A stretch of DNA of 64,000 bases from Actinoallomurus bryophytorum (lineage in GTDB: Bacteria > Actinomycetota > Actinomycetes > Streptosporangiales > Streptosporangiaceae). This document shows positions 7,438-49,435 of this stretch, one piece after another. Position 1 is the stretch's first letter, and every line of letters starts with the position of its first letter. The DNA lies in NCBI RefSeq assembly GCF_006716425.1, contig NZ_VFOZ01000001.1:558001-622000 (forward strand), given 5' to 3'. The translations under genes and the position numbers were made by a program. The notes under the pieces were generated by a model. The model saw only the letters and a program-made list of their open reading frames with translations, searched no databases and was not told where the DNA came from.

Positions 7438-8172
7438 TCAGCCTTTGAGCGGGTCCCGCGGACCGTAGCTGAGCCGGATCACCTGGCCGGTCTCACCAGG
7501 TGAACCCATGTCCTTGCCGTTGACCGTCACGCGTACGCCGCCGCCGTTGCCGATGAGCAGCCGGATGCGCTTCTTGGACTTCCACTGCTCGGTCTGGCCG
7601 GCGCGGATGATGCCGGTGAACAGCTGCTTGCCCTTGGCGTCGCGCACGTTGAGCCAGCTCGCGCGCCTGGCCTTGACCTTGACGGTGACGTCCTTGCGCG
7701 GCATCGGCACCACGACGGCGCTCTGCGAGGGGCGGGTCGCGGGTTTGGCCGAGGCGGGCGCGGCGGCCCGTTTGGCCGCGTGGTGCTCGTCGTGGCCGAC
7801 GGCGACCCGGACGATGCCGTAGATCGCGACCAGGACGAGCGCGACGACCATGGCCGCACTCCAGTTCGGCGCCCGTCTCTCACGGAAACGCACGGGGGTC
7901 TCCGGTTCGAACGCCTGCCGTGCCGGGATCGCCTGCGGTGATCCACCGTGCGCCTCGTCGTACTCGCCGATGAGCGGTTCCGGGTCGAGCCCGGCGACGC
8001 GCGCGATGCTGCGGATGTGCCCGCGCGTGTAGAAGTTTCCGCCGCACAGCGTGTAGTCGTCGCGTTCGATGGCCTTGATCACGGTCTCGCGGATCCTGGT
8101 CCGGTCGGCCACCTGCGTGACGGTCAGGCCCGCCTCCTGGCGGGCCTTCGCAAGGGTGCCACCGATGGTCAA
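7438..8172 (-). CDS. RodZ-like membrane protein: HTH domain, one helix, DUF4115 domain
   Basis: From the TTG at 8172 this is a 244-residue protein with a helix-turn-helix domain at 4-65 (TIGGTLAKARQEAGLTVTQV ... NFYTRGHIRSIARVAGLDP), one transmembrane helix at about 105-124 and an extracytoplasmic DUF4115 domain at about 160-236. This is the architecture of actinobacterial RodZ-like proteins, which link cell-shape or division factors to the membrane. The TTG is preceded by AAGGAGACACC, and family homology begins at this residue. Upstream, the same frame stays open through four 69-bp repeats, each with its own Shine-Dalgarno and GTG, so proteins of 267, 290, 313 or 336 residues are also possible. 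It lies between ftsK and rimO on the same strand. Confidence 0.8.
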   Translation of the reverse strand: MTIGGTLAKARQEAGLTVTQVADRTRIRETVIKAIERDDYTLCGGNFYTRGHIRSIARVAGLDPEPLIGEYDEAHGGSPQAIPARQAFEPETPVRFRERRAPNWSAAMVVALVLVAIYGIVRVAVGHDEHHAAKRAAAPASAKPATRPSQSAVVVPMPRKDVTVKVKARRASWLNVRDAKGKQLFTGIIRAGQTEQWKSKKRIRLLIGNGGGVRVTVNGKDMGSPGETGQVIRLSYGPRDPLKG

Positions 8173-8459
8173 GGTGTCTCCTTCGTCGGCACCACGACCA
8201 GAGGTGCTGTGCGTGAGGGTCCCCTCGCCGCGCTCGGTCACGGCACCTCCTTCGTCGGAGCCCGTGACCAAGGTGCTGTGCTTATCGGTTCCCTCGCCGC
8301 GCTCGGACACGGCACCTCCTTCGTCGGAGCCCGTGACCAAGGTGCTGTGCTTATCGGTTCCCTCGCTGCGCTCGGACACGGCACCTCCTTCGTCGGAGCC
8401 CGTGACCAAGGTGCTGTGCTTATCGGTTCCCTCGCTGCGCTCGGTCACGACGCCTCCTG
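8173..8459 (-). repeat. Four tandem 69-bp leader repeats upstream of the RodZ-like gene
   Basis: Units span 8391-8459, 8322-8390, 8253-8321 and 8184-8252; the last is the most diverged. On the minus strand each carries GAAGGAGG-type Shine-Dalgarno bases and a GTG, then codes for a 23-residue repeat (TERSEG, then DKHSTLVTGSDEG or similar). In-frame starts fall at 8448, 8379, 8310, 8241 and finally the TTG at 8172, each exactly 69 nt apart. The array may be untranslated leader or a variable-length N-terminal extension. Related single copies occur before the CGNR, DUF4439 and rbfA genes in this window. Confidence 0.9.
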
Positions 8460-19283: not shown

Positions 19284-19337
19284 GTGACCGAGCGGAGCGA
19301 GGACCCGGCGAACACCCCCATCGGCGAAGGAGGAGAC
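19284..19337 (+). repeat. Leader cassette (54 bp) before the CGNR gene
   Basis: Starts GTGACCGAGCGGAGCGAG, the same beginning as the RodZ-gene leader units, and ends with GAAGGAGGAGAC directly before the GTG at 19338. It is 18 codons long and in frame with the CGNR gene (TERSEDPAN... reading), so it may add an N-terminal extension or be untranslated leader. Confidence 0.75.
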
Positions 19338-19862
19338 GTGAGCGGCTCGGACAGCGCCCTGCTGCTGCGCGACTTCGTCAACACCTACGACGTCCAGTGC
19401 GACATCGACGAGTTCGGCGCGCCGTCCGACCTCGGCGGCTGGCTGTCCGAGCACGGGCTGGCGGCGCCCGGCGACCGCGCCGACGAGTTCGACCTGGGGA
19501 TCGCGGTCGCGCTGCGGGAGGGACTGCGGGCGGCCATGCCGGCGCGCCGTGAGCCGTGCGACCGGCCGGACCACCTCGACGGCCTCCTGGCCGGGCTGCC
19601 ACTGCGGCTGTCGCTCGACGGCCCGGTGCTCGTCCCCGTGCACCGCGGGATCCGCGGCGCGCTCGCCGGGGTCGCCGCGGCGGTCGTGGCGAGCGACGCC
19701 GACGGCACCTGGGCACGCCTCAAGGTCTGCCAGGAGCCGACCTGCCGCTGGGCCTTCCTCGACACCTCCAAGAACCGCTCGCGCACGTGGTGCTCGATGC
19801 GCATGTGCGGCAACCGCACGAAGACCCGCGCGTACCGGGAGCGGCAGCGCGTGAGCGACTGA
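19338..19862 (+). CDS. CGNR zinc-finger protein (ABATE-domain family)
   Basis: 174 residues from the GTG at 19338, which is preceded by GAAGGAGGAGAC. The N-terminal ABATE domain begins LLLRDFVNTYDVQCDIDEFG. The C-terminal CGNR finger has CQEPTCRWAFLD, then WCSMRMCGNRTKTRAYRER, giving the four zinc cysteines. These proteins are putative transcription regulators common in actinomycetes; targets are unknown. The frame is open to a GTG at 19278/19284, but that upstream part is a dispersed leader cassette and not conserved protein. The next gene is an acetyltransferase 65 bp downstream. Confidence 0.85.
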   Translation: MSGSDSALLLRDFVNTYDVQCDIDEFGAPSDLGGWLSEHGLAAPGDRADEFDLGIAVALREGLRAAMPARREPCDRPDHLDGLLAGLPLRLSLDGPVLVPVHRGIRGALAGVAAAVVASDADGTWARLKVCQEPTCRWAFLDTSKNRSRTWCSMRMCGNRTKTRAYRERQRVSD

Positions 19863-38173: not shown

Positions 38174-38355
38174 GATGTGGACCCTCCTTGAATTCGGTGG
38201 TGTCCGCATACGGTTCCCGGGGGTGCAGCGCTCTGTGGAGAGGTGCCGGTCTTCGATCGAAGCCGTCGGATCGCCCTGTTCCGATGGCCACTACCGAGGA
38301 CCGGCCCCCGACGCACCCAGGGGCGGCGGTAGCGGACTCTTGCAGTTATACGAAG

Positions 38356-41862: not shown

Positions 41863-42341
41863 GACCCGGAGTATCTCGCGTTGGCGGCGTCATCGCCGTC
41901 TGTTTCGTCAACATCCTCCTCGGTTCGCGCCTCCCGGTAAGGGTTCGCCTCCCCCGCGGGAAGGGCGCCCTCGGCGACCTTGGCCACCTGCTCGTCCGCG
42001 GCGCGCGCCTTGGCGAGCAGGTCGTTGATCTGCCGGGCGTTGTCGGGCAGAGCGTCCGGCACGAACGTCACGCTCGGGGTGTGGCGTACGCCGGTGCGCT
42101 TGCCCACCTCCGACCGGATCACGCCCTTGGCGCTCTCGAGTGCCGCCGCGCTGTCCGCGCGCTCGGTGTCGGTGCCGTAGACGGTGTAGAAGACCGTCGC
42201 GTCCCGCAGGTCGTTGGTCAGCCGCGTGTCCGTCACAGTGACGAAGCCGAGCCGTGGGTCCTTGATGCGCAGCTCCAGCATCTCCGCGACGATCTGCTGG
42301 ATGCGGTCCGCGAGCTTACGAGCCCTCGCAGGATCCGTCAC
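41859..42341 (-). CDS. rbfA: 30S ribosome-binding factor A
   Basis: 160 residues. The KH-like core ([20 protein letters not shown] ... [20 protein letters not shown]) is followed by a conserved [20 protein letters not shown] and an acidic C-terminal tail. It matures the 16S rRNA 5' end and acts in cold growth. The GTG at 42341 follows GGAGGAGGACCT. This start overlaps the TGA of a 23-codon leader ORF. Confidence 0.93.
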
Positions 42342-42409
42342 AGGTCCTCCTCCGTAGGACCTGTCGGCCAAGCCGCCGCGTGGGGGGTTCCCTCGTGCGG
42401 CCCGGTCAC
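42338..42409 (-). CDS. 23-codon leader ORF coupled to rbfA
   Basis: GTG at 42409 with GAGGACCT before it; ends at a TGA (42338-42340) that overlaps the rbfA GTG as GTGA. The first 24 nt match the RodZ-gene leader units in 19 positions (GTGACCG ... CGAGGGAACC), and the end GGAGGAGGACCTGTGAC repeats the bases found before the leader start. The distance from leader start to gene start is 68 nt. Peptide begins [10 protein letters not shown] and ends TEEDL. Confidence 0.5.
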
Positions 42410-48047: not shown

Positions 48048-48426
48048 GGGACCTCCTTTTGGCATCACGGCCGCTGGGCGGGTGGTCGCCCGATGCGCCC
48101 ACTCCGCACATAAGACTATCCACAGCTGAGGGCGGCGGGTGCCGCATCGGCGGCCGACCGGCGCGCCTCGGAGCCCACACGGCCAGGGCGCGCGCGGGGA
48201 GCGGCGTCCAGGTGGTACCGGCGAGACGGGAGGGAGCCCGGCCTCGTTCTGCCCGCCGACTGATGACAACGCCGCCGGGCGCTGCCTGAATGCCGCTTAG
48301 TAGCCCAGTCCCACCCCACCCTGACTCCCACAGGCCCACTCCGCGCTTGCTCTTGCGGTGCTATTCGCGCGGGGTCTTATGGAATGCTTGCGCACCTGAG
48401 TGAAGACCGATGGACGGAGGGCACGC
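48048..48426. other. Divergent promoter region rimP / ferritin-like genes
   Basis: 379 bp between rimP (minus) and a lipoprotein gene (plus). TAGTCT at about 48110-48115 on the minus strand is a possible -10 for the rimP-nusA-infB operon. No gene or clear RNA structure is seen. Confidence 0.45.
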
Positions 48427-48918
48427 TTGGACGCGTTGCGGTCCGTGACTCCAACGCGGCGCGCGGTGCTCGGCGGGACCGCGGCGGTGCTGGCGACGGC
48501 CACGGGATGCACGAGTGTCGGGCAGGCGGACGCGCCCCTCGCCGGGCCCGAGGTGGCCCTCCTGGACGGCGCGATCCAGAACGAGGCGCGGCTCATCGCG
48601 CTCTATGACGCCGTCATCGCCGCCCACCAGGGGCTCAGCGGCCGGCTGGCGCCCCTGCGGGACCATCACGTCCAGCATCTCGCGGTGCTCAAACGCCACT
48701 ATGTTCCCGGCAGCAACACCGGCACCGCGACCCCGGCACCGCGACCGGCCGTCACCGCGCCCGCCCGTGAGGCGAGCGCCCTGTCGGCCCTCCGCAGCGC
48801 CGAACGCAAGGCTGCCACGGCCCACGCCGACGAGGTCCGCCGCGCGTCTCCGGGGCTCTCTCAGCTGCTGGCGGCCATCGGCGCCTGCGAGGCCGGACAC
48901 GCACAGGAGCTCACGTGA
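48427..48918 (+). CDS. Ferritin-like Tat-type lipoprotein
   Basis: 163 residues from a TTG at 48427 with GGAGG 6 nt upstream. The signal has twin arginines at 11-12 (TPTRRAVLGG), a hydrophobic run and a lipobox ending in C28 (ATATGC), so it is probably Tat-exported and lipid-anchored. The mature part is an all-helical ferritin-like bundle (LLDGAIQNEARLIALYDAVI ... CEAGHAQEL), related to DUF4439. It ends inside the leader of the next DUF4439 gene. The pair beside rimP is seen in other actinomycetes. Function unknown. Confidence 0.78.
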   Translation: MDALRSVTPTRRAVLGGTAAVLATATGCTSVGQADAPLAGPEVALLDGAIQNEARLIALYDAVIAAHQGLSGRLAPLRDHHVQHLAVLKRHYVPGSNTGTATPAPRPAVTAPAREASALSALRSAERKAATAHADEVRRASPGLSQLLAAIGACEAGHAQELT

Positions 48919-48986
48919 GCGAGCGAAGCGAGAGAACCGGCAGGCACGGTCCCACGGTCACTCTCCCGACGGAGGAGGGCGCATGA
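48915..48986 (+). CDS. 23-codon leader ORF coupled to the DUF4439 gene
   Basis: GTG at 48915 with AGGAG before it, overlapping the preceding stop. It starts GTGAGCGAGCGAAGCGAG, the leader-cassette signature, and runs 23 codons (begins MSERSERTGR, ends TEEGA) to a TGA that overlaps the DUF4439 ATG (ATGA at 48983-48986). GGAGGAGGG near its end is the ribosome-binding site of the DUF4439 gene. Confidence 0.55.
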   Translation: MSERSERTGRHGPTVTLPTEEGA

Positions 48987-49435
48987 CCGCCTCTCCAGCG
49001 ACGATCGCCGCGCTCCAGGGGGCGCTCGCCGCCGAGCATGTCGCGATCTTCGGATACGGCGTGCTGGGCGCCCACCTCCTCGGCGTACAGCGGGGCAACG
49101 CCGATCAGATGTGGAACGCCCATCGCACCCGCAGGGACAAGCTGCGCTCCTACGTCGAGGCGGGCGGCGGGACGCCGGTCGCCGCCGCGCCCGCCTACCG
49201 CCTGCCCTCGCCGATCTCCTCGTCCCGCGCGGCGGCCCAGCTCGCCGCCCGGCTGGAGGACGGTGTGGCCGCGGGCTACGCCGGCCTGGCCGGGGTGACC
49301 GACCCCGGCCTGCGCCGCTACGCCGCGCTGGCGATGCAGGAGGCCACGGTGCGCGCGGTCCGCTGGCGTGGTTCGCCGCCGTCCGCCTTTCCCGGGCTGA
49401 CCAAGGCGGAGCTCTACCCGAAGGCGGAGGGATAG
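48983..49435 (+). CDS. DUF4439 ferritin-like protein
   Basis: 150 residues: TIAALQGALAAEHVAIFGYG opens the helical bundle with the conserved E..H pair; then RTRRDKLRSYVEAG and ARLEDGVAAGYAGLAG follow. No signal peptide is present, so unlike its neighbour it is cytoplasmic. Such domains may bind a di-metal site; the role is unknown. ATG at 48983 overlaps the leader ORF stop and has GGAGGAGGG upstream. Confidence 0.8.
   Translation: MTASPATIAALQGALAAEHVAIFGYGVLGAHLLGVQRGNADQMWNAHRTRRDKLRSYVEAGGGTPVAAAPAYRLPSPISSSRAAAQLAARLEDGVAAGYAGLAGVTDPGLRRYAALAMQEATVRAVRWRGSPPSAFPGLTKAELYPKAEG

Follow-up and report, generated by a model that had tools for sequence, protein, structure and literature searches.

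A short, probably mobile start-codon cassette of Actinoallomurus with likeness to MIRUs

A cassette of about 68 bp with its own short reading frame stands directly before unrelated genes in Actinoallomurus, and it is probably a non-autonomous short mobile element of the MIRU kind, with a coupled mini-ORF and a fold-back head, moved in trans. Comparison of copies, flanks and orthologous sites shows that it inserts at RTGAS, mostly at the ATGA or GTGA of a gene start and often where a stop and a start overlap, with RTGAS at both ends afterwards. The same comparison shows that the cassette places a GGAGG before the gene, that its lengths keep either stop/start overlap or in-frame fusion, and that its units multiply in tandem.

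The window, a 64-kb stretch of the Actinoallomurus bryophytorum genome, holds the cassette at four sites, all at gene starts, as single 68-bp copies, four 69-bp units and one 54-bp copy; these are the four related sites reported by the first-pass annotation, and all are present as it described them. The copy before the ferritin-like DUF4439 gene (48915..48982, plus strand; 68 bp) is followed by the start ATGA at 48983, and its mini-ORF, VSERSERTGRHGPTVTLPTEEGA, has an SD-like GGAGGAGGG and a stop TGA that overlaps the ATG of DUF4439. Its head (48915..48937, plus strand) consists of RTGAS (the first copy of the target), the hairpin centre CGAGCGNAGCGAG and an arm, with the pair of bases 1 and 23 intact (G-C) and that of bases 5 and 19 lost (G, A). 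The second copy of the target is the ATGAC start of the gene itself (48983..49435, plus strand; PF14530, E 1.5e-40). Upstream lies an ORF at 48400..48918 (plus strand), for which a Pfam search gave no match and whose stop TGA (48916-48918) overlaps the GTG start of the cassette. The CGNR/ABATE copy (19284..19337, plus strand) is shortened to 54 bp and fused in frame to the GTGAGC gene start at 19338. Before RodZ, four in-frame units of 69 bp follow one another on the minus strand (8380..8448, 8311..8379, 8242..8310 and 8173..8241), the last adjoining the gene start TTGACC at 8172. The rbfA copy (42342..42409, minus strand; 68 bp), read in the window sequence only, has a diverged core and precedes the gene start GTGAC at 42341; its head, GTGAC...GGAAC, keeps both pairs. 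Pfam assigned the four downstream genes to DUF4439, zf-CGNR, HTH_25 plus RodZ_C, and RBFA respectively, and the head motif (at most three mismatches) matched eight times in the window vs 2.33 +/- 1.44 times in shuffles.

Throughout the genome of the window (G000; 9.47 Mb), 47 places match the 18-base head when one mismatch is allowed and 0 match its reversed pattern; a looser pattern with two mismatches gave 155 matches vs 26 for the control. An RTGA form of the pattern matched 58 times in this genome and 7 to 173 times in each of seven other genomes of the genus (0-3 control matches per genome), with G003 as the copy-richest. Loci were taken for all 47 matches in G000 and, in G003, for the exact matches listed minus eight, about half of 177. 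A profile made from the copies recognised 163 units at 97 sites (33 in G000 and 64 in G003), counts that leave aside four head loci of G000 outside the profile (C1:577284, which is the CGNR copy of the window, C1:17240, C1:1209819 and C1:7704183). The common unit of ~68 bp reads RTGA[CG]CGAGCGNAGCGAG[CG]GAA[CT]C ... GGTCAC ... CTCCGACGAAGGAGGG.[TC]C and is followed directly by the RTGA of the gene. Single units occupied 59 of the 97 sites and tandem arrays the other 38 (18 double, 14 triple, 4 quadruple and 2 quintuple); tandem units abut exactly, the end of one running straight into the RTGA of the next, and unit length was 65-71 bp in 133 of 136 units. A strict full-pattern scan of genome contigs, from which near relatives of the window had possibly been excluded, returned one record, from Actinoallomurus spadix; a looser full pattern matched in 8 of 16 chosen genomes, the matches in one of them (G020) belonging to a different repeat. 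That repeat (L246, L254, L260, L264, L268, L270, L272 and L274) begins CCGGCCGAGCGCAGCGAGGCCTTGGCGCGGAGGG..., has the same hairpin centre and carries GGAGG before RTGA.

Copies are tied to gene starts. In G000 the cassette runs directly into an NTGA at 26 of the 33 sites, and a frame of 94 codons or more begins there (one of the 26, C1:1177894, being antisense); at the other seven the gene start lies a few bases on, a diverged extra unit precedes the gene, or the cassette is fused into it. In G003, 52 of the 64 sites run into such a frame of at least 97 codons. Eight of the other 12 were inspected: two are fused, three have a further degenerate unit before the gene, two have the gene start dozens of bases on, and at one the gene is apparently out of frame; one further site runs into masked sequence. 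Since GC-rich DNA gives long frames by chance, eight downstream genes were checked by Pfam, and all eight matched a family. The downstream genes are unrelated to one another. On the upstream side, the TGA of the left RTGA is itself the stop of an open frame of at least 100 codons at 61 of 91 sites, vs 37 and 13 for the other frames; therefore stop/start overlaps look like common insertion targets. Almost all copies found sit at sense gene starts, a share that seems higher than a target of RTGAS by itself would predict and that counts against the reading given here.

The first-pass annotation had claimed that 68-bp copies end in a stop/start overlap, while copies divisible by three are fused in frame. 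Among the 136 units with NTGA at both ends (27 of 163 lacked one end, and tandem units are not independent), length was 2 mod 3 in 88 (overlap), 0 in 47 (fused) and 1 in one, so the claim holds for the copies examined. The last unit of each array taken by itself gave 57, 23 and 1 respectively (n=81). Cassette heads fused into protein N-termini were seen at C1:7830439 (L038) and C2:59502 (L016) of G000 and at C1:525429 of G003, in proteins that presumably resemble a condensation-domain protein, a nitronate monooxygenase and an adenylosuccinate synthetase, respectively.

Mobility was assessed at the orthologs of 15 occupied G000 sites in six genomes of the genus, with 71 of 90 possible comparisons made. 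Eighteen were strict empty sites, the flanks joined with zero extra bases; 13 scored for the cassette core, one of them (G006 at C1:2497998) being empty by eye; the remainder showed small gaps, remnants, or flanks whose divergence prevented anchoring. The site at C1:3766926 is empty in every one of the six relatives: in G006, ...TGATCAGCTC is joined directly to ATGAGTGATCC, where G000 has ...TGATCAGCTC, the cassette and then ATGAGCGATCC. The BatA/VWA gene at C3:349899 was empty in five of five genomes compared, and the site at the ABC-transporter gene (C1:7398775) was empty in G006 and filled in G004. For the window genes, RodZ orthologs had no core in G001, G004 and G005 and a scored core in G003, G006 and G007, while DUF4439 orthologs had no cassette in G006 and G007 and three units in G003. 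At C1:3784553 the insertion departs from a simple addition. Thus the cassette is inserted DNA, because orthologous genes without it show exact empty sites.

The insertion leaves a copied target. At the 80 sites compared (the other 17 of the 97 lacked a terminal NTGA), the cassette and the gene agree at base 1 in 62 (shuffles 39.6 +/- 4.1) and at base 5 in 59 (shuffles 36.6 +/- 4.0), values reached by none of 2000 shuffles in either case. Bases 2-4 are invariant TGA and bases 6-11 match the gene without excess; therefore the shared stretch is five bases, RTGAS, and it stands at both ends as a target site duplication would. Two minor signals lay outside this stretch: cassette base 12, in the hairpin loop, equals gene base 12 at 25 of 50 single-copy sites (16.4 expected from shuffles, 3/2000 of which reach it) and without excess at multi-copy sites (4 of 30 vs 6.1), and upstream base -2 correlates weakly with the cassette end. 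The first-pass annotation had spoken of a mobile or recurrently copied translation-initiation module, and the dispersed and tandem copies, exact empty sites, copied 5-bp target and kept frame bear this out; further genomic copies, a tie to gene starts and empty orthologous sites, the three things it had proposed beforehand to look for, were all found.

The head of the cassette covaries as a fold-back. Bases 1 and 23 form a pair at 68 of 81 sites (A:T 38, G:C 30) and bases 5 and 19 at 64 (C:G 40, G:C 24), and there is no clear association of base 1 with 19 or of base 5 with 23. Together with pairs 2-22, 6-18, 9-15 and 10-14, these pairs make a stem that has a GNA loop and contains tandem G.A steps at two places, 3.21/4.20 and 7.17/8.16. 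Paired cells made up 91.0% of the total in 52 distinct heads and 84.1% in shuffles, and there were 32 double-change cells vs 16.9 (0/500 shuffles reaching either value); versions of the stem slid out of register were 5-42% paired vs 91% in register. Two of the five covariation measures (pairs with double change, further pair types) were not above shuffles. Single-sequence folding of nine sequences did no better than shuffles, and energy models may under-score tandem G.A pairs and GNA loops; the stem therefore rests on covariation. For an SD stem (CTCC/GGAG), and for GGTCAC against the gene start, the pairing partners vary too little to speak for or against pairing. Mutual information was also high for adjacent columns in the variable middle (c30-38, c54-57), probably because of alignment gaps and subfamilies.

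The pairing recurs outside the genus. The set examined comprised 103 of 116 matches, from 24 genomes, found with a pattern that fixed S at bases 5 and 19, A at 22 and Y at 23 and left only the choice of pairing free. Bases 1 and 23 were A:T in 48, G:C in 39, A with C in 14 and G with T in 2 (p = 6e-14, or 5.7e-8 after removal of within-genome duplicates), and bases 5 and 19 were paired in 99 of the 103 copies listed. Bases 20-21 were GA, the tandem G.A partner, in 77 and TC, the Watson-Crick complement of G3-A4, in 19. In one family (f28), base 23 was mismatched in 7 of 12 heads starting with A.

Arm base 23 also complements gene base 1 at 63 of 81 sites, and arm base 19 complements gene base 5 at 57; this fits target choice by pairing. 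We suppose, with less confidence than for the coupling of mini-ORF and gene, that bases 1-23, the head, form a single-stranded fold-back in which arm 19-23 pairs with RTGAS, and that by the same pairing the element may find matching RTGAS targets in DNA. The main competitor, to which we give a substantial minority chance, is that the fold-back is an RNA structure that hides the start of the mini-ORF unless an upstream ribosome arrives; selection on mRNA would then keep pairs 1-23 and 5-19, and the match to the gene would follow from target duplication alone. That the start codon of the mini-ORF lies within the head, that head pairing recurs in several families and that 61 of 91 sites overlap the stop of an upstream open frame all suit such a structure. 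It would nevertheless require the arm to mutate at every new site, yet the arm complements the gene at the frequencies just given.

One antisense copy also bears on this choice. At C1:1177894 of G000 (L004:1501-1568) a cassette in antisense orientation separates two minus-strand genes, of which the downstream is UvrD-like by Pfam; among the 33 G000 sites it is the only antisense copy recognised, and it sits at the palindromic TCACGTGA. Its site, TCACGTGAC, is exactly empty in G003, which reads ...GAGATCAC joined directly to GTGACGTGTCC. This was the one clean empty site among five relatives: in G006 the flanks enclose different sequence, and divergence at this place is too great in G001, G005 and G007. 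Although it lies on the non-coding strand, the copy keeps pair 1-23, though not 5-19, which speaks against an RNA structure. Moreover, the palindrome offers GTGAC on the non-coding strand, and the target would therefore be read in DNA rather than in translated message; this single copy thus suggests recognition at the DNA level.

Under the preferred reading of a mobile element with a coupled mini-ORF, an enzyme acting in trans would move the cassette into RTGAS. Ribosomes translating the mini-ORF would terminate at the overlap and re-initiate on the gene, expression and upstream regulation would pass through the cassette, and insertion would thereby be tolerated. Copies would be retained where they are harmless because coupling or fusion keeps the gene translated. 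A TPP riboswitch (RF00059; L028:1395-1508) in the region of C1:3411633 of G000 ends where a cassette begins (1501), and it now precedes the mini-ORF instead of the gene; here coupling would relay riboswitch control to the gene. In an Rfam search over eight sources, the gathering score was reached only by this TPP riboswitch and by Actino-pnp RNA (RF01688), a described cis-regulatory RNA family, at 38245-38305 (minus strand) of the window.

Y1 (HUH) transposases of the IS200/IS605/RAYT type recognise single-strand hairpins and use guide-target pairing. A REP-type element moved by such an enzyme would suit the apparent single-strand hairpin with a target-pairing arm; still, we think it unlikely. 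Y1_Tnp (PF01797) was not found in G000 (E<=0.001), G001, G002, G004, G005 and G006, and G003 has only a 41-residue fragment that matches it, so that six of eight same-genus genomes, all bearing copies, are without a match. Conversely, G011, G014 and G025 contain PF01797 but no match to the head, and the RTGAS on both flanks is unlike typical IS200/IS605 insertions. As a candidate mobiliser the Y1/HUH transposase was rejected: PF01797 occurred in 18 of 72 genomes and did not track copy number. Plasmids and phages as carriers were likewise rejected: in plasmid and phage collections from which near relatives of the window may have been excluded, two plasmid records matched, partially and weakly (an 11.85-Mb Nonomuraea record, 62% of the query; a Pseudomonas record, 32%), and no phage record did.

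A conserved, attenuator-like leader peptide, regulatory in its own right, would account for a 23-codon open frame with recognisable sequence, and we hold this to be very improbable. Codon-position entropy in 76 distinct 68-bp units showed no third-position excess (p = 0.75), about a third of the units are fused rather than stopped, the same gene occurs with or without the cassette between species, and the downstream genes are unrelated. In the elements studied, the frame and its end thus appear to be kept while the peptide bears no sign of selection at the protein level. Local duplication of ribosome-binding regions or chance similarity, with nothing mobile, is hardly credible: the tandem arrays do show local duplication, yet 33 dispersed sites in one genome with 0 control matches, the exact empty sites and the 5-bp target copy contradict it.

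Differences in MIRU copy number underlie the strain typing of tuberculosis, and MIRUs themselves reportedly go back to Supply et al. in 1997. The first-pass annotation knew no description of the cassette. In this it was mistaken as to kind, since a 2025 review in J Bacteriol already describes MIRUs as short, repetitive, apparently mobile elements whose insertion at a start codon couples an internal ORF at -4 nt (PMC12548453). Unit sizes given in other sources are 77 and 53 bp (PMC2453075, PMC4213456), 77 nt (PMC4128351) and a range of about 40-100 bp (PMC2734929). The cassette resembles MIRUs in several respects: i) it is a short repeat, dispersed and in tandem, within about 40-100 bp; ii) it occupies start codons, and its internal ORF shares 4 nt with the gene (88 of 136 units, with 47 fused); and iii) its mobility is indicated by 18 strict empty sites in 71 comparisons. 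It differs in its hosts, which are Actinoallomurus and other families, not mycobacteria.

We further searched one genus, g71, which we infer to be Mycobacterium, with a putative MIRU motif, and found it in 21 of 148 genomes. The repeats there (12 loci read) include 53-bp tandem units with DTGAN at both ends, GAGCGTAGCGA, and GGAGGAG before the next start. Their first five bases equal the five after the unit in 10 of 12 units (from 5 of the 7 loci matched, many of the units tandem), and lengths are 2 mod 3 in seven of 12, 0 in three and 1 in two. Compared by eye, they have in common with the cassette the hairpin centre GAGCGNAGCGA, the DTGAN ends and the SD end, while the rest differs, and the 5-nt arm pairing with RTGAS was not seen in the g71 units.

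Other known systems fit less closely. REP/RAYT elements are likewise short and dispersed, bear a hairpin and would depend on an enzyme supplied in trans, but the cassette stands at gene starts, has an open frame and RTGAS at both ends, and shows no Y1_Tnp correlate; it has a covarying stem and an arm, in an order unlike that of IS200/IS605. With MITEs it shares shortness, lack of autonomy and a target duplication, but inspection of its ends showed no terminal inverted repeats. Translationally coupled leader ORFs and bicistronic designs have in common with it a short ORF with stop/start overlap before the gene (PMC12548453); the leader of the cassette, in contrast, is a dispersed mobile repeat. 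Our literature search found no account of such elements outside mycobacteria (one 'MIRU-like' match was the name of a cyanobacterial species and was set aside). The cassette would thus represent a MIRU-kind variant outside mycobacteria, with targeting evidence that we did not meet in the literature on known members.

Nor did the MIRU literature examined state how MIRUs move. With its exact empty sites, copied 5-bp target, insertion in antisense and element-target covariation of base pairs, this copy-rich relative opens the question of mobilisation to tests in non-pathogens, and its sequence offers fresh hints on target choice in such elements. Moreover, one genome may carry up to ~170 matches to a single ready-made start-codon cassette, and some cassettes have turned into protein N-termini, which bears on the annotation of start codons.

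New here is the spread of cassette-type heads over seven families of the class: they occurred in 25 of 296 genomes sampled across it, with 0 control matches. At the class-wide loci, 24 of 25 scored units (one from G000; 6 of 31 heads had no scored next start) measured 59, 68, 74, 77, 80 or 104 bp, all 2 mod 3, and the exception was scored at 55, at an ATGA inside a unit with a further GTGA at 80. A wider reading, which we put forward tentatively and consider rather doubtful, would make these class-wide actinobacterial micro-elements, with MIRUs as their described branch. They would find targets by pairing a 5-nt arm (SGAAY, or the full complement STCAY in another family) with single-stranded RTGAS, different arms would lead to ATGAC, ATGAG, GTGAC and GTGAG starts, and they would be moved in trans. 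In two further genomes, the hairpin centre GAGCGNAGCGAG lies inside apparent larger inverted repeats (L080 in G077 and L077 in G101).
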